DNA of 64,000 bases from Glutamicibacter creatinolyticus. Its GTDB lineage: Bacteria; Actinomycetota; Actinomycetes; Actinomycetales; Micrococcaceae. Under the pieces are notes generated by a model that was not told where the DNA came from, ran no database searches, and was given only the letters and a program-made list of their open reading frames with translations. The stretch covers positions 1,054,001 through 1,118,000 of the forward strand of contig NZ_CP034412.1 of the NCBI RefSeq assembly GCF_006094275.1, written 5' to 3'. A program made the position numbers and the translations under genes. Of the stretch, positions 1,760 through 13,207 are shown piece by piece. The number at the start of each line of letters is the position of its first letter. The stretch's first letter is position 1.

Positions 1760-3079
1760 GTGTCTGAAATGAAGCAGAATCCCGCCCTCGCGGGACAACG
1801 TATTGATCCGTCGTTCGATAACATCTGGCAGGAACTGAAGTGGCGCGGGCTGGTCCACGTCTCCACCGATGACGCCGCGCTGGAAGAAGCGCTTGCCAAC
1901 GAGACGGTCACATACTATTGCGGCTTCGACCCGACCGCGGCGTCCCTGCACCTGGGCCACCTGGTGCAGCTGCTGAACATGCGCCGCCTGCAGTTGGCCG
2001 GCCACAAGCCGCTGGCGCTGGTGGGCGGTTCCACCGGGTTGATCGGCGATCCCCGCCAGAGCGCCGAACGCGTACTGAACACCCGGGAGACCGTGGCCGA
2101 ATGGGTTGCCAGCCTGCAGTCCCAGGTCTCGCGCTACCTCTCCTTTGAGGGGGAGAACGCGGTGCGACTGGTCAACAACCTGGACTGGACGCAGAACGTC
2201 AGCGCCCTGGACTTCCTGCGCGACATCGGCAAGTACTTCCGGGTGGGCACCATGATCAAGAAGGAAATCGTCGCCGCCCGCCTGAACTCCGATGAGGGCA
2301 TCAGCTACACCGAGTTCAGCTACCAGGTCCTGCAGGGCTTCGACTTCCTGGAGCTGCACCGCCAGTACGGCTGCACCCTGCAGACCGGCGGCTCGGACCA
2401 GTGGGGCAACCTGACCAGTGGCACCGAGCTGATCCGCAAGGTCGAGGGCAAGCACGTCCACGCCTTCGGCACCCCGCTGATCACCAACTCCGACGGCACG
2501 AAGTTCGGCAAGTCCGAGGGCAATGCCATCTGGTTGGATCCGGAAATGTGCAGCCCGTACACCTTCTACCAGTTCTGGCTGAACACCGCGGACGCCGATG
2601 TGATCGACCGGCTGAAGGTCTTCACCTTCCTCACGCGTGCCGAGATTGAGGAAATGGCGACCGAGGTGGCCGAGCGCCCGCACCAGCGCAAGGCACAGCG
2701 CACCCTGGCCTGGCTGGTCACCAGCCTGGTCCACGGCGAGGACGCGACCGAGAAGGTCATCGCCGCCTCGGCCGCGGTCTTCGGCAACGGCGAATTGGGC
2801 GAGATCGATCTGCCGACGCTGCAGGCGGTCATCGCCGAGCTGCCCTCGGCCAAGATCAAGGCCGATGAGCTGGGCATCCTCAACGTGCTGCAGACCAGCG
2901 GGCTGAGCAAGAGCCAGTCCGAGGCCCGCCGCACCGTTGGGGAAGGCGGCGCCTACGTGAACAACCACAAGGTCCAGGGGATCGACTCGGAACTTAGCGT
3001 TGATGACTTCCTGCACCAGCGCTACGCGATCATCCGCCGAGGCAAGAAGAACATGGCAGTCCTGGAGCTGGAGGGCTAA
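1760..3079 (+). CDS. tyrS: Tyrosyl-tRNA synthetase
   Basis: Class I aminoacyl-tRNA synthetase that charges tRNA-Tyr in the cytoplasm. The protein is 439 residues, usual for bacterial TyrRS. The HIGH-type motif is HLGH at residues 64-67 and the KMSKS-type loop is KFGKS at about 248-252; the specificity region GGSDQWGN is present, and an S4 RNA-binding domain forms the last 70 residues. The start used is GTG at 1760 (SEMKQNPAL); ATG at 1769 is an alternative with no better ribosome binding site. In M. tuberculosis tyrS (Rv1689) also opens the block that continues with the TPR protein, HAD phosphatase and tlyA; here an rRNA operon separates the two. A strong terminator follows at once. Confidence 0.97.
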   Translation: MSEMKQNPALAGQRIDPSFDNIWQELKWRGLVHVSTDDAALEEALANETVTYYCGFDPTAASLHLGHLVQLLNMRRLQLAGHKPLALVGGSTGLIGDPRQSAERVLNTRETVAEWVASLQSQVSRYLSFEGENAVRLVNNLDWTQNVSALDFLRDIGKYFRVGTMIKKEIVAARLNSDEGISYTEFSYQVLQGFDFLELHRQYGCTLQTGGSDQWGNLTSGTELIRKVEGKHVHAFGTPLITNSDGTKFGKSEGNAIWLDPEMCSPYTFYQFWLNTADADVIDRLKVFTFLTRAEIEEMATEVAERPHQRKAQRTLAWLVTSLVHGEDATEKVIAASAAVFGNGELGEIDLPTLQAVIAELPSAKIKADELGILNVLQTSGLSKSQSEARRTVGEGGAYVNNHKVQGIDSELSVDDFLHQRYAIIRRGKKNMAVLELEG

Positions 3080-3505: not shown

Positions 3506-8440
<4,935 letters not shown>

Positions 8441-8446
8441 CACTAT

Positions 8447-8565
8447 GTTACGGCGGTCATAGCGTGGGGGAAACGCCCGGTCCCATACCGAACCCCGGAA
8501 GCTAAGGCCCACTGCGCCGATGGTACTGCACTCGTGAGGGTGTGGGAGAGTAGGACACCGCCGGA
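8447..8565 (+). rRNA. rrf: 5S ribosomal RNA
   Basis: About 119 nt beginning GTTACGGCGGTCATAGCG and ending ACACCGCCGGAC; the two ends pair as the terminal helix. The conserved CCGAACCCCGGAAGCTAAG core is present. It sits six bases after the 23S 3' end, the standard third gene of the operon. Confidence 0.96.
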
Positions 8566-8585
8566 CTTAATTTGATGAAGGGTTT

Positions 8586-8637
8586 GAGGCTCTAACCAGT
8601 GATGGTTGGAGCCTCACCTGTTTAAGCCGTGGGGCTT
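8586..8637 (+). terminator. Tandem hairpins ending the rRNA operon
   Basis: First hairpin: GAGGCTCTAACC (8586-8597), loop AGTGAT, GGTTGGAGCCTC (8604-8615), 12 bp with one wobble. Second: AAGCC (8624-8628), loop GTGG, GGCTT (8633-8637). There is no long T tract, so termination efficiency is uncertain. The remaining 8638-8848 holds another small hairpin, GCGACGC/GCGTCGC (8746-8764), and the leader of the next gene; no further gene seen. Confidence 0.7.
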
Positions 8638-8848
8638 TAGCCGTCCTCCACACCTACGACTGCACGATACGCATCCTGAGTGTCTGGCCACATTTCCCCC
8701 GCTTTCAAGCCACGGGCTTTTCACGTCGCCTAGACTTGAATGAGCGCGACGCCTGCAGCGTCGCAAAGATACTAAATAGTGAAGTGACTCGACGTGCGAG
8801 CACGAAGGTTGCGGTGTTGGAATAGGGCCGCTGAGAGGAAAACTTTTC

Positions 8849-11182
8849 ATGTCTAACGAATCCCATCGCAACTCGGGCAACGACCGAGGAAATTTCCGAA
8901 ACAATCATTCGGGACGAAACCAAGAGCATCGCGGCGGCTTCCGCCGTGATGGCGACCAGCGCAAGGACAACCGTCGAGGCGAAGACCGCCGTGACGGTTT
9001 CCGGCGAGACGATAGTGATCGCGGTGGCTACCGCGGACAGCGAGACTCTAATCGCGGAGACTTCCGCCGTAACGATGACAACCGCGGTGGTTACCGCGGC
9101 GATCGTGACCGCAACCGCGGGGATTTCCGCCGCAATGATGACAACCGTGGTGGCTTCCGCGGGGATCGTGACCGTTCTGATTTTCGTCGCGATAGCGACA
9201 AGCGCGACAATTTCCGCCGCAATGATGACAACCGTGGTGGCTTCCGCGGGGATCGTGACCGTTCTGATTTCCGCCGCAACGACGACAACCGCGGCGGTTA
9301 CCGCGGGGACCGTGACCGCAGCCGCGGGGACTTCCGCCGTACCGACGAGAACCGTGGCGGTTTCGGCGGGGACCGCGATCGCAATCGTGGAGGGTTCCGG
9401 CGTAATGATGATAACCGCGGTGGTTATCGCGGGGACCGTGACCGTACTGACTTCCGCCGCAATGACGACAACCGTGGTGGCTTCCGTGGGGACCGTGAGC
9501 GTTCTGATTTCCGTCGTGATGGCGACAAGCGCGACAATTTTCGCCGCAATGATGACAACCGTGGTGGCTTCCGCGGGGATCGTGACCGTTCTGATTTCCG
9601 TCGCGATGGCGACAAGCGCGATAATTTCCGCCGCAATGACGACAAGCGCGGTGGCTTCCGCGGGGACCGTGAGCGTTCTGATTTCCGTCGCGATGACGAC
9701 AAGCGCGGTGGCTTCCGCGGGGACCGTGAGCGTTCTGATTTCCGTCGCGATGACGACAAGCGCGGTGGCTTCCGCGGGGACCGTGAGCGTTCTGATTTCC
9801 GTCGCGATGACGACAAGCGCGGTGGCTTCCGCGGGGACCGTGAGCGTTCTGATTTCCGACGCGATGACGACAAGCGCGGTGGCTTCCGCGGGGACCGTGA
9901 GCGTTCTGATTTCCGTCGCGATGACGACAAGCGCGGTGGCTTCCGCGGGGACCGTGAGCGTTCTGATTTCCGTCGCGATGGCGATAAGCGCGATAATTTC
10001 CGCCGCATTGACGACAACCGTGGCGGCTTCCGCGGGGACCGTGAGCGTTCTGATTTCCGCCGCAACGACGAGAACCGTGGCCAGTTCCGCAAGGGTGACG
10101 AGCGCGGGCGGGAGACCTCCCGTGGCCGCTCCGAGGGTGGGGCGCCCAAGGGCAAATTCCAGGATGACGAGCGCGGCGTTCGCAAGCACAACCCCGGCGA
10201 TCTGCGCATCTCCAACCGTCCGGACCGCACTGCCTCTCCGGACATCGACGAGGACGTGACGGGCAAGGAGCTGGATCGCGTGGCTCGCGCCCAGCTGCGC
10301 TACCTGGAGGAACGCAGCCAGAGCTGGGTTGCCAAGCACCTGGTCATGGCCGGACGTCTGCTTGAGGTCGATCCTGAGCTGGCCTATGAGCACACCCTGG
10401 CGGCTTCCCGCCGTGGCGGTCGCGTGGCCGTGGTGCGCGAGGCGGTGGGGATCGCCGCCTACCATGCTGGCAAGTATGCCGATGCCCTGCGCGAACTGCG
10501 CACCCACCGCCGGATCAGCGGCTCGGACTACAACCTGCCGCTGATTGCCGACTCGCTACGCGGTCTGGGCCGGGCGGAGAAGGCCATTGAAATGGCGCAC
10601 GACGAGGAGTTCGCCGAGCTGGACACCGCGGTCAAGGTGGAGTTGCACATTGTGGCCGCCGGCGCCTACGCCGACCTGGGGAAGATGGACGCCGCGCTGG
10701 CCGAGCTGGAGGCGCTGCCGCAGCTGGACTTCAACCGTGCCTTCAAGTTCACCCCGCGCCTTTTCAGCGCCTACGCCGACCTGCTGCAGGAAGCCGGCCG
10801 GGCCGAAGAGGCCAAGCGCTGGCGCGCGCAGATCGCCGTGGCGGAGCGGGCGCTGGGCGTTGAGGAGGACAGCGACGATTCGTTCATCTACGACCTGGCC
10901 CCGGAAATGGATGAGGAAGAGGCCCATCCGCGGGCCAAGGACCTGATCGAGCCGGGCGCTGACGCAGAAGCCGAGGAAGCCGACTCCGATTCGGACGTCG
11001 TTGCCCAGATGGACGCTTCCAACGAGGATGACGAAACCGTGCAGGAGCACGCCGCGACCGGCATCGACGAGGAGGATGACCTGTCCGAGGTGTCCTTCGA
11101 TGACGCGCAGGCCGAGGACGATGACGCGCAGGAACGCACCATCCACGCCGATGGGGACGAGAGTCCAGCGCAGGACAAGTAG
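8849..11182 (+). CDS. TPR-type protein with a giant Arg/Asp/Gly-rich repeat N-terminus
   Basis: 777 residues in three parts. Residues ~20-440 are low-complexity repeats rich in R, D, G, N and F/Y with RGG/RGD-like steps; five consecutive 57-bp copies encode DDDKRGGFRGDRERSDFRR units (9692-9976). Residues ~469-675 form an all-helical TPR-like domain (HLVMAGRLLEVDPELAYEH, ALRELRTHRRI, ADLGKMDAALAELEAL). Residues ~675-777 are an acidic, disordered tail. The start is ATG 8849 with AGAGGA (8835-8840) upstream. The gene occupies the place of the TPR-type Rv1691 protein before the HAD phosphatase in M. tuberculosis. The helical core is conserved in Actinobacteria without known reaction; the repeat domain is the unusual part. 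RNA binding or condensate formation is inferred from composition only. Confidence 0.85.
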   Translation: MSNESHRNSGNDRGNFRNNHSGRNQEHRGGFRRDGDQRKDNRRGEDRRDGFRRDDSDRGGYRGQRDSNRGDFRRNDDNRGGYRGDRDRNRGDFRRNDDNRGGFRGDRDRSDFRRDSDKRDNFRRNDDNRGGFRGDRDRSDFRRNDDNRGGYRGDRDRSRGDFRRTDENRGGFGGDRDRNRGGFRRNDDNRGGYRGDRDRTDFRRNDDNRGGFRGDRERSDFRRDGDKRDNFRRNDDNRGGFRGDRDRSDFRRDGDKRDNFRRNDDKRGGFRGDRERSDFRRDDDKRGGFRGDRERSDFRRDDDKRGGFRGDRERSDFRRDDDKRGGFRGDRERSDFRRDDDKRGGFRGDRERSDFRRDDDKRGGFRGDRERSDFRRDGDKRDNFRRIDDNRGGFRGDRERSDFRRNDENRGQFRKGDERGRETSRGRSEGGAPKGKFQDDERGVRKHNPGDLRISNRPDRTASPDIDEDVTGKELDRVARAQLRYLEERSQSWVAKHLVMAGRLLEVDPELAYEHTLAASRRGGRVAVVREAVGIAAYHAGKYADALRELRTHRRISGSDYNLPLIADSLRGLGRAEKAIEMAHDEEFAELDTAVKVELHIVAAGAYADLGKMDAALAELEALPQLDFNRAFKFTPRLFSAYADLLQEAGRAEEAKRWRAQIAVAERALGVEEDSDDSFIYDLAPEMDEEEAHPRAKDLIEPGADAEAEEADSDSDVVAQMDASNEDDETVQEHAATGIDEEDDLSEVSFDDAQAEDDDAQERTIHADGDESPAQDK
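9692..9976 (+). repeat. Five 57-bp tandem repeats inside the RGD/TPR gene
   Basis: Copies start at 9692, 9749, 9806, 9863 and 9920; each encodes 19 residues and they are almost identical at DNA level (one copy has CGACGC for CGTCGC at its junction). Diverged copies flank the array on both sides from about 8990 to 10090. The unit is a multiple of three, so copy-number change keeps the frame. Confidence 0.95.
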
Positions 11183-11213: not shown

Positions 11214-12224
11214 ATGCTGATTTCGGGTTTTGACTCGGTCCTGTCCGACCTGGATGGGGTGGTGTACGCTGGGGCTGAGGCCGTGACCGGCGCCGTGGAG
11301 TCGCTGAACGCGTTGGCGGAGGTGGAGGTCCCGCTGGCCTTCATCACCAACAACGCGGGGCGCTCCCCAATGGCCGTGGCGGCACACCTGCGCCAGCTGG
11401 GCGTGAAGACGTCGGCGGAGCACGTATTCGGTTCGGCCGATGCCGGCGCGGAGTTGCTGGCCCAGAAACTGAACCCGGGCAGCAAGGTGCTGGTGGTCGG
11501 TTCCCCCTACCTGCGTGAGTGCGTGGCCGTGCGCGGCATGGAAGTGGTGGAGTCCCATCAGGACGAGCCGGCCGGAGTGATCCAGGGGTTCTACCCCGAG
11601 GTTTCGTGGACCGACCTGGCCGAGGCCAGCTATGCGATCGCCCGCGGGGCGACGTGGGTGGCCACCAACACGGATCTGACGATCCCGCGGTCCGAGGGCC
11701 TGGCCCCGGGCAACGGCTCGCTGGTCAACGCCGTGCAGGCGGCGGTGGACGCCGAGCCGGAGATCGCCGGCAAACCGCAGTCCTACCTGTTCACCCGTGC
11801 CGCGGAACGGCTGGATTCAACCAAGCCGCTGGTGGTCGGGGACCGGCTGGACACCGATATCCTGGGCGCCAACCGCGCCGGGTTCAGCAGCGCCCTGGTG
11901 CTCACCGGGGTCGATAGCCCGCGCAGCGCCCTGGCCGCCCCGGCCGATCAGCGCCCCACCTACCTGATCCGGTCGCTGGATGACTTTTACCGGCCCTACC
12001 CGACCACCCAGGTGCTGGGCTTCGGGGTACAGGTCGGGGAGGCGGTGGCCAGCGTGCGCGAGGACAAGATCGAGGTGACCGGCACCGAATCGGACCTGGA
12101 TGGCTGGCGTGCGGCGTGCCACGCCTGGTGGCTGGCCCATCCGCGGCAGACTGGGTGTGTAGAACCGCAGATCCAATTCACCGCACGCGGGCTGGATGAA
12201 CTGCACCGCGCCGCGCGGAGGTAA
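11214..12224 (+). CDS. HAD-IIA family sugar/glycerol phosphatase
   Basis: 336-residue haloacid dehalogenase hydrolase of subfamily IIA. The nucleophile motif is DLDGVVY near residue 13, motif II is ITNNAGRS, and the C-terminal Mg-binding motif is VGDRLDTDILGANRAG (about residues 205-220). The counterpart in the same place in M. tuberculosis, Rv1692, is a D,L-glycerol-3-phosphate phosphatase involved in glycerophospholipid recycling; that substrate is inferred here. Start ATG 11214 is fixed by a strong AGGAGGGA (11197-11204). Residues after ~260 form an extra C-terminal domain typical of the actinobacterial version. It is followed after 3 bp by the next small gene, so 11214-13207 reads as one operon. 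Confidence 0.9.
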   Translation: MLISGFDSVLSDLDGVVYAGAEAVTGAVESLNALAEVEVPLAFITNNAGRSPMAVAAHLRQLGVKTSAEHVFGSADAGAELLAQKLNPGSKVLVVGSPYLRECVAVRGMEVVESHQDEPAGVIQGFYPEVSWTDLAEASYAIARGATWVATNTDLTIPRSEGLAPGNGSLVNAVQAAVDAEPEIAGKPQSYLFTRAAERLDSTKPLVVGDRLDTDILGANRAGFSSALVLTGVDSPRSALAAPADQRPTYLIRSLDDFYRPYPTTQVLGFGVQVGEAVASVREDKIEVTGTESDLDGWRAACHAWWLAHPRQTGCVEPQIQFTARGLDELHRAARR

Positions 12225-12227
12225 GAG

Positions 12228-12416
12228 ATGAACCATCCGATGCCGACCCCCGGGCCCCTGGCCCGACCCGCCGCCGCCCAGGTGACTGAGCAGGTCGTGG
12301 AGGAACGCCTGGCCTCGCTGGCCTCCCTGGACATCGCCGAGCATGCGCGGGTCTATGAGCAGCTGCTGCATGATCTGCAGCAGGACCTGAACCGCACCGG
12401 GGGCGGGACGCAGTGA
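12228..12416 (+). CDS. Small conserved helical protein between HAD phosphatase and tlyA
   Basis: 62 residues, no recognised domain. The middle (VEERLASLASLDIAEHARVYEQLLHDLQQDL) is predicted to be two amphipathic helices, and the N-terminus is Pro-rich. Start ATG 12228 follows GGAGG (12217-12221); its stop overlaps the GTG of tlyA as GTGA. M. tuberculosis has a similar short gene, Rv1693, in the same position, so it is probably real and translationally coupled to tlyA. Function unknown. Confidence 0.75.
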   Translation: MNHPMPTPGPLARPAAAQVTEQVVEERLASLASLDIAEHARVYEQLLHDLQQDLNRTGGGTQ

Positions 12417-13207
12417 GCCGCCTGGACCAGGAGCTGGTCGCCCGTTCCCTGGCTCGATCCCGCACCGACGCCGCCCGGCTGATCGCCGAGGGGCGGGTGC
12501 TGCTGGACGGGCAGCCGGCCACGAAGGCCTCCAAGAAGGTCGATCCTTCCGCGACGCTGCAGCTGCTGCCCGGCCAGGGGGAGGAGTACGTCAGCCGGGC
12601 CGGGCACAAGCTGGCCGGGGCGCTGGAACACTACCCGGACATCGACCCGCGGGGCCTGCGCTGCCTGGACGCCGGGGCCTCCACCGGCGGGTTCACCGAT
12701 GTGCTGCTGCGCCGCGGGGCCCGGCACGTGGTGGCCGTCGACGTCGGCCACGGTCAGCTGGTGGACCAGATCCGCTTTGACCAGCGGGTCAGCGTGCACG
12801 AGGGGCTGAACGTGCGTTACCTGGAGCCGGCGCAGATCGGGGGAGTTGTCGACCTGGTGGTGGCTGACTTGTCTTTTATTTCGCTGCGCCTGGTGATCCC
12901 GGCGCTGGCGCAGGCAACACGCCCGGGCGGGACCCTGTTGTTGATGGCCAAACCCCAGTTCGAGGTGGGCCGGGAGCACCTGGGCAAGTCCGGGGTGGTC
13001 ACCTCCGCACGCCTGCGGCGCACCGCGGTGGAAAACGTGGTGGCCAGCGCGCGGGAAGCCGGACTTGAGCTGCAGGGGCTGGCGCGCAGCCCGCTGCCCG
13101 GGCAGGATGGGAACGTGGAGTTCTTCCTGCGCCTGGGCCGGCCCGACACCGGGCAGCCACAATCCCCGCCCGATGCGCGGATGTGGGAGCTGGTTGACTA
13201 TTCTTGA
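12413..13207 (+). CDS. tlyA: TlyA family rRNA 2'-O-methyltransferase
   Basis: 264 residues. An S4 RNA-binding domain occupies residues 1-60 (RLIAEGRVLLDGQPATKASKKV), followed by a Rossmann FtsJ-like methyltransferase with the SAM motif LDAGASTGGFTDVLLRRGA (about 83-101). TlyA 2'-O-methylates C1409 of 16S and C1920 of 23S rRNA in mycobacteria and is needed for capreomycin susceptibility. The Lys-Asp-Lys-Glu-type catalytic residues appear present (K61-like region, D in VVADLSFIS, K in MAKPQFEVG). Start GTG 12413 overlaps the preceding stop. Confidence 0.93.
   Translation: MSRLDQELVARSLARSRTDAARLIAEGRVLLDGQPATKASKKVDPSATLQLLPGQGEEYVSRAGHKLAGALEHYPDIDPRGLRCLDAGASTGGFTDVLLRRGARHVVAVDVGHGQLVDQIRFDQRVSVHEGLNVRYLEPAQIGGVVDLVVADLSFISLRLVIPALAQATRPGGTLLLMAKPQFEVGREHLGKSGVVTSARLRRTAVENVVASAREAGLELQGLARSPLPGQDGNVEFFLRLGRPDTGQPQSPPDARMWELVDYS

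Follow-up and report, generated by a model that had tools for sequence, protein, structure and literature searches.

A 64,000-nucleotide stretch of Glutamicibacter creatinolyticus DNA (contig NZ_CP034412.1, positions 1,054,001 to 1,118,000; hereafter, the window) contains, directly behind an rRNA operon, a gene for a 777-residue protein (8849..11182, plus strand, ATG start, stop codon included; boundaries from the open reading frame (ORF) list and AlphaFold2) in which a long arginine-rich arm, predicted to be disordered, precedes a tetratricopeptide-repeat (TPR) core and an acidic tail. We find that this arrangement is standard in a family that spans the class, that fine mixing of charges in an Arg-rich, Lys-poor arm is conserved across the family, and that the gene lies behind a 5S rRNA gene in most loci. 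The reading that we favor, and to which we give slightly less than an even chance, is that the protein is an RNA-polymerase- or RNA-associated scaffold of Actinomycetota belonging to the family of mycobacterial Rv1691 and MSMEG_3754. It is favored because the core has conserved charged residues at predicted groove positions, because the arm resembles the insertion of actinobacterial Rho, and because MSMEG_3754 has been recovered together with RNA polymerase.

Arm, core and tail of a class-wide protein family

The arm (8849..10249, plus strand; residues 1–467) is a well-mixed Arg/Asp/Gly/Phe polyampholyte built of tandem repeats. The original prediction for this gene had recognized the arm but set its length at about 420 residues, somewhat short of the 467 found here. 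The arm contains 28.9% R, 21.6% D, 15.8% G, 7.9% F, 7.7% N, 3.6% E and 3.2% K, with a fraction of charged residues of 0.57 and a net charge per residue of +0.07. RGG occurs 18 times, vs. 3.3 (SD 1.7) in 1000 shuffles, FRR occurs 22 times vs. 3.1, GGF occurs 14 times vs. 0.9, and FRG words are also several-fold above shuffles; residue counts and shuffles thus bear out the proposed composition of Arg, Asp/Glu, Gly and aromatic residues. Charge segregation is 0.021, vs. 0.074 (SD 0.011) for shuffled arms, and none of 500 shuffles was equally well mixed. The proposed alternation of Arg with Asp/Glu holds at a scale of about five residues; it does not hold residue by residue, RD (24 vs. 29.3 shuffled) and DR (26 vs. 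29.0) being unenriched. In an AlphaFold2 model of the whole protein, residues 1–475 and 671–777 fall below 50 in the predicted local distance difference test (pLDDT), in agreement with the proposed disorder of the arm. The C-terminal tail (10895..11179, plus strand; 95 residues, disordered in the same model) is 39% D+E with a net charge per residue of −0.35, and is as acidic as first proposed. A short conserved linker, HNPGDLRISNRPDRTASPDID (10187..10249, plus strand), precedes the core, and a similar stretch, DLRxSNxPxRxxSPxID, stands by eye at the same place in other genera of the family Micrococcaceae.

To place the gene among its relatives we surveyed genomes and contigs across the phylum, in regions chosen by us, partly for long contigs; the genomes are related, and the counts are therefore not independent. 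The core is present in 18/18 genus genomes and 147/149 family genomes, in 187/197 class genomes by profile search, and in 119/296 phylum genomes by single-sequence search. The named contigs added to the genome set come from 587 confirmed pattern matches, of which they are the 80 best, nearly all near relatives by title. We read 158 proteins free of truncation at a contig end, with 155 distinct cores and 157 distinct arms; one genome is counted twice, here and among the 100 loci of the 5S count below, for two identical copies, and another for two unlike copies. The arm reaches 40 residues or more in 154 of these proteins and is shorter in four. Truncated ORFs and 8 duplicate ids are excluded from the arm counts, as they are from the 5S counts. 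The fusion of arm and core, initially described as unusual, is thus the rule in this class. Nor are the repeats missing in close relatives, which would have counted against the original prediction: an Arg/Asp/Gly/Phe/Asn arm is found in 14/18 genus genomes, the gene being truncated at a contig end in the remaining 4. In one genus with 1.2-Mb genomes (family f88), the core was not found in 3/3 sampled genomes (G524, G550, G621). The locus also turns up, in a Micrococcaceae-like version at 63% identity, on a contig titled Sporosarcina beigongshangi (L164), a record that is therefore probably misnamed or mixed.

All 154 arms of at least 40 residues contain at least 13% Arg (medians: R 22%, D+E 18%, G 17%, K 1.7%), and in 18/18 long arms, selected by us, charges were better mixed than in every shuffle (500 shuffles for the window, 200 for the others). 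By comparison, the repeat unit differs from group to group: the genus has FKRNDDRGGFRNDRRDDNRGG, other members of the order have GGFKPREDRGGFRGGDD, RPARDGERRPFNNDRGD and QRRDGDRPSGGY, family f5 has units resembling RRDDRRDDRGGFRRDD, and Nonomuraea has GPRREGGFRDDR. Called arm length ranges from 4 to 776 residues (the longest, in L345, from a later set), with start codons called by a simple rule (ATG, GTG or TTG plus ribosome site) that is wrong in some loci (e.g., L125, L179, L280 and L285). Family f6 departs most from the pattern, several of its arms being 46–67 residues long and poor in acidic residues (L117, L120, L129, L250, L251). Because units and length vary freely while charge mixing stays, we conclude that a property of the arm, and not its sequence, is conserved: that is, the arm is Arg-rich, Lys-poor, near-neutral and finely mixed.

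The core (10250..10894, plus strand; about 215 residues) was modeled alone by AlphaFold2 with a pLDDT of 92.8 and a predicted template-modeling score of 0.86. The model is all-helical, and its predicted antiparallel helix pairs match TPR structures. Pfam TPR models remain below their gathering scores on the core (best, TPR_15, 15.8 bits vs. 26.2), so that by sequence the core is at most a divergent TPR member; the predicted fold nonetheless upholds the TPR-like core of the original prediction. Searches of Pfam and NCBIfam gave nothing above curated cut-offs for the ORF at 8849–11182, and a search of the PDB by sequence gave a single match, at E 0.46. Across 177 aligned cores, R58, R63, E64, Y71, R88, D101, R104 and G138 are conserved at 1.00 (rounded), and the best conserved residues are largely charged (R58, R63, E64, R84, R88, D101, R104, D142). 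By our assignment on the predicted helices, with the usual numbering of the TPR motif, the invariant E64, Y71, D101 and R104 and the nearly invariant D142 occupy groove positions of TPR A helices. Since conserved residues line the groove of the modeled fold, the core is likely to bind a single conserved ligand.

The arm has counterparts in composition among known RNA-associated proteins. Eukaryotic RGG/RG proteins carry clustered RGG/RG triplets, and the mixed-charge domains of nuclear-speckle proteins are arginine-enriched, lysine-poor and near-neutral with fine charge mixing; the arm shares both sets of traits, including Gly/aromatic spacing, with the likeness being one of composition only. 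Unlike these proteins, the window protein is bacterial and has a TPR partner in place of RNA-recognition domains. The tails of RNase E and DEAD-box helicases are likewise disordered Arg-rich extensions, and the RNase E of this genome (L266) has, by eye, long Arg-rich flanks; it is a separate gene, no RNase E/G catalytic domain is listed for the ORF, which has no catalytic domain, and the charge pattern of its arm differs by eye from that of these tails. A further counterpart is the N-terminal insertion of actinobacterial Rho (Micrococcus luteus, Mycobacterium tuberculosis and the Rho of this genome, L263), an Arg-rich charged tandem tract in a protein of the RNA machinery; in L263, near-identical tandem repeats of an R/D/N/E/G-rich unit are visible by eye in the N-terminal part. 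Rho is also a separate gene, no Rho ATPase domain is listed for the ORF, and, unlike Rho, the ORF carries its arm on a TPR core, with more Gly and Phe. No other gene of this genome matched the arm at E 1e-3; since the similar tract of Rho was itself missed at this threshold, the search is insensitive to composition. Disordered insertions of the Rho type are reported, in a passage of PMC8828861, to increase RNA affinity, and prokaryotic Arg-rich low-complexity regions are described in a passage of PMC6821194 as enriched in RNA-binding and RNA-processing proteins.

The link to RNA polymerase comes from mycobacteria. Rv1691/MSMEG_3754 is a TPR protein of the lprJ–recN region, and its core is followed by genes for HAD, TlyA, NAD kinase and RecN; the window has the order TPR–HAD–TlyA, and the full order is present in Tsukamurella. 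The kinship is one of core, gene order and annotation. MSMEG_3754 is on a high-confidence list of 214 proteins recovered with RNA polymerase by anti-RNA-polymerase immunoprecipitation after formaldehyde treatment, and FLAG-tagged MSMEG_3754 brought down no detectable DNA, the authors allowing for mere RNA association (passage in PMC7092591).

Position behind the rRNA operon

In the window, the 5S rRNA gene (8449..8566, plus strand; Rfam scan) is the final gene of an rrn operon with 16S at 3506–5042 and 23S at 5303–8440, and the gap from the 5S end to the ATG is 282 bp, confirming the earlier figure of 280 bp. Where 2.5 kb or more of upstream sequence was available (100 loci), a 5S gene lies on the same strand at most 1 kb upstream in 78 (67/81 loci of the genome set, window included, vs. 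11/19 named contigs) and 1–5 kb away in 14, with long ORFs in most of these gaps (transposase-like by eye in L077; in L125 probably the arm itself, its start being miscalled); in 8, including a genus sibling (L089/L218), no 5S gene was found in the upstream stretch. In that sibling (L218, genome G004), the gene is near tyrS with no rrn operon between. Loci with 300–2500 bp of upstream sequence gave a 5S match in 30/48, and the median 5S-to-gene distance in the first 70 loci was 121.5 bp. In other classes, for which 17 stretches were fetched, 16 of them with a recognizable core, a 5S gene lies within 1 kb in 10/16, although in two the called start precedes the 5S gene. Rfam scans place a 5S gene 138 bp upstream of the annotated gene in Tsukamurella tyrosinosolvens, and rRNA upstream, with 5S at about 1.4 kb, in Nonomuraea gerenzanensis. 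The suspicion that the place behind 5S matters is supported by these counts. Because the place is kept in many distant relatives, the protein probably works with the RNA-making machinery, as far as gene position can tell.

A 14-bp terminator-like hairpin with a weak T tract follows the 5S gene (8585..8616, plus strand; hairpin search), and by eye each of the three remaining 5S genes in this genome has a similar hairpin behind it. Across 103 loci, 87 show a stem of 9 bp or more within 90 nt after 5S, so that the gene is usually downstream of an rrn terminator. Of the 86 loci whose stem has 10 bp or more, 16 have a gap of at most 40 nt from stem to called start (two of these starts are doubtful, each being a TTG that abuts the stem). 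Such a gap leaves too little room for a separate promoter and suggests read-through from rrn at those loci.

The place could instead be a functionless relic of ancestral gene order, irrespective of the protein's own role, and we regard this as a serious alternative, though one clearly short of even. The place belongs to a block: the window has the order tyrS-like ORF–rrn–TPR–HAD–tlyA, and Tsukamurella has HAD–tlyA–NAD kinase–recN. In the 14 loci with 5S at 1–5 kb, moreover, mostly with long ORFs intervening, the gene persists all the same. A control gene, M13-peptidase-like to judge from its sequence and situated after a different rrn operon of the same genome, behaves differently: rRNA lies within 1.5 kb in 1/30 of its loci, namely its own. 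This is a single control and a rarer gene (relatives in 31/78 class genomes, vs. 74 of those 78 for the TPR core). In family f8, two genomes carry the TPR gene twice (L123/L124; L241/L242), with each copy behind an rrn operon, and the read-through suggested at the 16 loci with short gaps likewise speaks for more than inherited order.

The main rival to the scaffold reading concerns the other side of the gene. The TPR core may regulate or scaffold the neighboring HAD phosphatase, with the arm as a solubilizing or crowding tail and the rRNA place incidental; we consider this rather unlikely. A HAD relative is downstream on the same strand in 136/176 loci (some with too little downstream sequence), and in four genomes of family f6 (G445, G536 and G616, of one genus, and G598; loci L222, L267, L268 and L269) TPR and HAD form one open frame, the called arms in the three-genome genus being only 10–28 residues long. 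Rv1692, the M. tuberculosis counterpart of the HAD protein by gene order, is a glycerol-3-phosphate phosphatase according to a passage of PMC12722247. However, the fusion is seen in four genomes only, the HAD match is well over 1 kb past the TPR gene in several f5 and f85 loci, and no HAD relative was found in the fetched stretch of some f83 and f85 loci. A metabolic partner would, in addition, leave unexplained both the class-wide Arg-rich mixed-charge arm and the recovery with RNA polymerase.

Candidate promoter, putative leader and neighboring genes

A consensus scan of 8400–8900 found neither promoter nor terminator. Conservation by eye identifies TAGACT (8731..8736, plus strand), within a genus-conserved block, as a candidate −10 element; its counterpart in several other genera is TAGAAT. 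Downstream of it lies a putative structured 5′ leader of about 109 nt with a ribosome-binding site (8740..8848, plus strand) and three hairpins (8746–8764, 8784–8803 and 8811–8831). In 12 genus sequences the three hairpins are paired in 93% of cells, two-sided changes occur in 14 cells, shuffles giving 5.4, and covariation scores 0.230 vs. 0.115 for shuffles (0/500 as high), falling to at most 0.047 with partners slid; an outer stem predicted beside the start codon was excluded from the pair count. The window leader folded alone is not better than shuffles (z −0.92), and 12 related sequences may exceed a shuffle control without structure; for these two reasons the structured leader is only a lead. 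A leader model (R1, default filters) finds one place in this genome, the leader itself, and on 64 further loci it matches L082 and L075, both of the genus, and 0/59 from other genera, indicating that the leader in this form is genus-specific. No Rfam family reaches its gathering score in the leader. That it is an autoregulatory RNA is possible, as a guess.

The gene is followed by the HAD phosphatase gene (11214..12224, plus strand) and by a gene for a TlyA-type S4/FtsJ RNA methyltransferase (12413..13207, plus strand); upstream of the rrn operon is an ORF (1760..3079, plus strand) that is, by resemblance, presumably tyrosyl-tRNA synthetase-like. The four rrn copies of this genome have very unlike 23S–5S spacers, of 8 nt here (8441–8448) vs. 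about 193, 40 and 3 nt (L215, L216, L217), and a second, partial 5S copy lies within L215. The 5S gene at 8449–8566 scores 91.0 bits vs. 98.7 for the other three, from which its length differs by one base.

There is no sign, in the collections searched, that the gene is mobile or of phage origin: 0/19 pattern matches in viral contigs were relatives, PHROGs gave none, and the plasmid collection gave 2 records, of which one is 11.85 Mb long and is filed there as a plasmid.

Weighing of the scaffold reading

If the arm had arisen almost neutrally, by slippage of repeats in GC-rich DNA, and only the TPR core mattered, its wide range of called lengths and its genus-specific units would follow directly, and runs of identical units in the window arm do point to recent expansion. 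The arm indeed consists of imperfect tandem repeats with periods of 30–144 bp, the longest array being 57 bp in 13.5 copies. Differences between units, however, fall mostly at third codon positions: 938 vs. 254 at position 1 and 343 at position 2 for 10-residue units, and 92 vs. 11 and 0 for 9-residue units. From this excess we conclude that this frame is coding and maintained; the long antisense and +2 ORFs over the arm look like by-products. Together with Arg content kept in 154/154 arms and charge mixing in 18/18 of those tested, the pattern makes the slippage explanation improbable.

A more ambitious form of the scaffold reading appears to us quite improbable. The scaffold would be phylum-wide and its gene tied to the rRNA operon since early Actinomycetota, with expression of the gene coupled to rRNA synthesis by terminator read-through or by its own leader; the arm would form a nucleolus-like body by drawing in RNA polymerase together with nascent rRNA, the TPR groove would recruit a processing or assembly factor, and the leader RNA would be the target of autoregulation. 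It is very improbable that the TPR protein acts like a chaperone of peptides or proteins, is cleared by ClpC1 and has no nucleic-acid role: MSMEG_3754 is entered in a ClpC1 interactome table, but the table is long and the entry is not taken further in the passage (PMC10433963).

Several points weigh against an RNA-polymerase- or RNA-associated scaffold even in its plain form. The frequency with which a HAD relative follows the gene means that its place may be plain conserved gene order, and such a block needs no functional link; the gene also survives without an rrn neighbor, as in the genus sibling. Since it persists without 5S in 8/100 loci, and since the core was not found in 10/197 class genomes, among them the three small-genome ones of family f88, it is not indispensable for rRNA. 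The ORF has no RNA-binding domain of known fold, and any result on a short-armed member, as in family f6, would concern the core only. The formaldehyde pull-down with RNA polymerase lists 275 proteins, some of them metabolic and called contaminants by the authors (passage in PMC7092591).

According to the scaffold reading, the groove of the folded TPR core, with its invariant charged residues, would be the docking site of one specific protein partner. The arm would bind RNA and acidic partners through weak, multivalent contacts that raise the local affinity for RNA in the manner of the actinobacterial Rho insertion, and might condense with them. The acidic tail would tune these contacts or compete with them, as an internal competitor. 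In the genus, since the gene follows the rrn terminator and has its own candidate promoter and a structured leader, its dose may partly follow rRNA synthesis and perhaps be self-adjusted. The protein may thereby have a part in rRNA transcription or ribosome making; we are less sure of a specific role in rRNA synthesis.

A search of the open-access literature by full-text words found no paper on the arm of this family or on its place behind rrn, which is not proof of absence; as far as that search reaches, the class-wide mixed-charge arm, the widespread rrn attachment and the genus-specific leader appear to be new. Even if the rRNA link is only positional, the results provide a testable function for a "hypothetical TPR protein" of nearly all sampled class genomes. 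If the arm binds RNA, Actinomycetota would possess a conserved, uncharacterized scaffold of the RNA machinery, encoded behind the rRNA operon in many families. The family would then offer a natural library of arms that keep charge mixing and Arg over Lys while sequence turns over, and an entry point to the organization of rRNA synthesis in high-GC Gram-positive bacteria.

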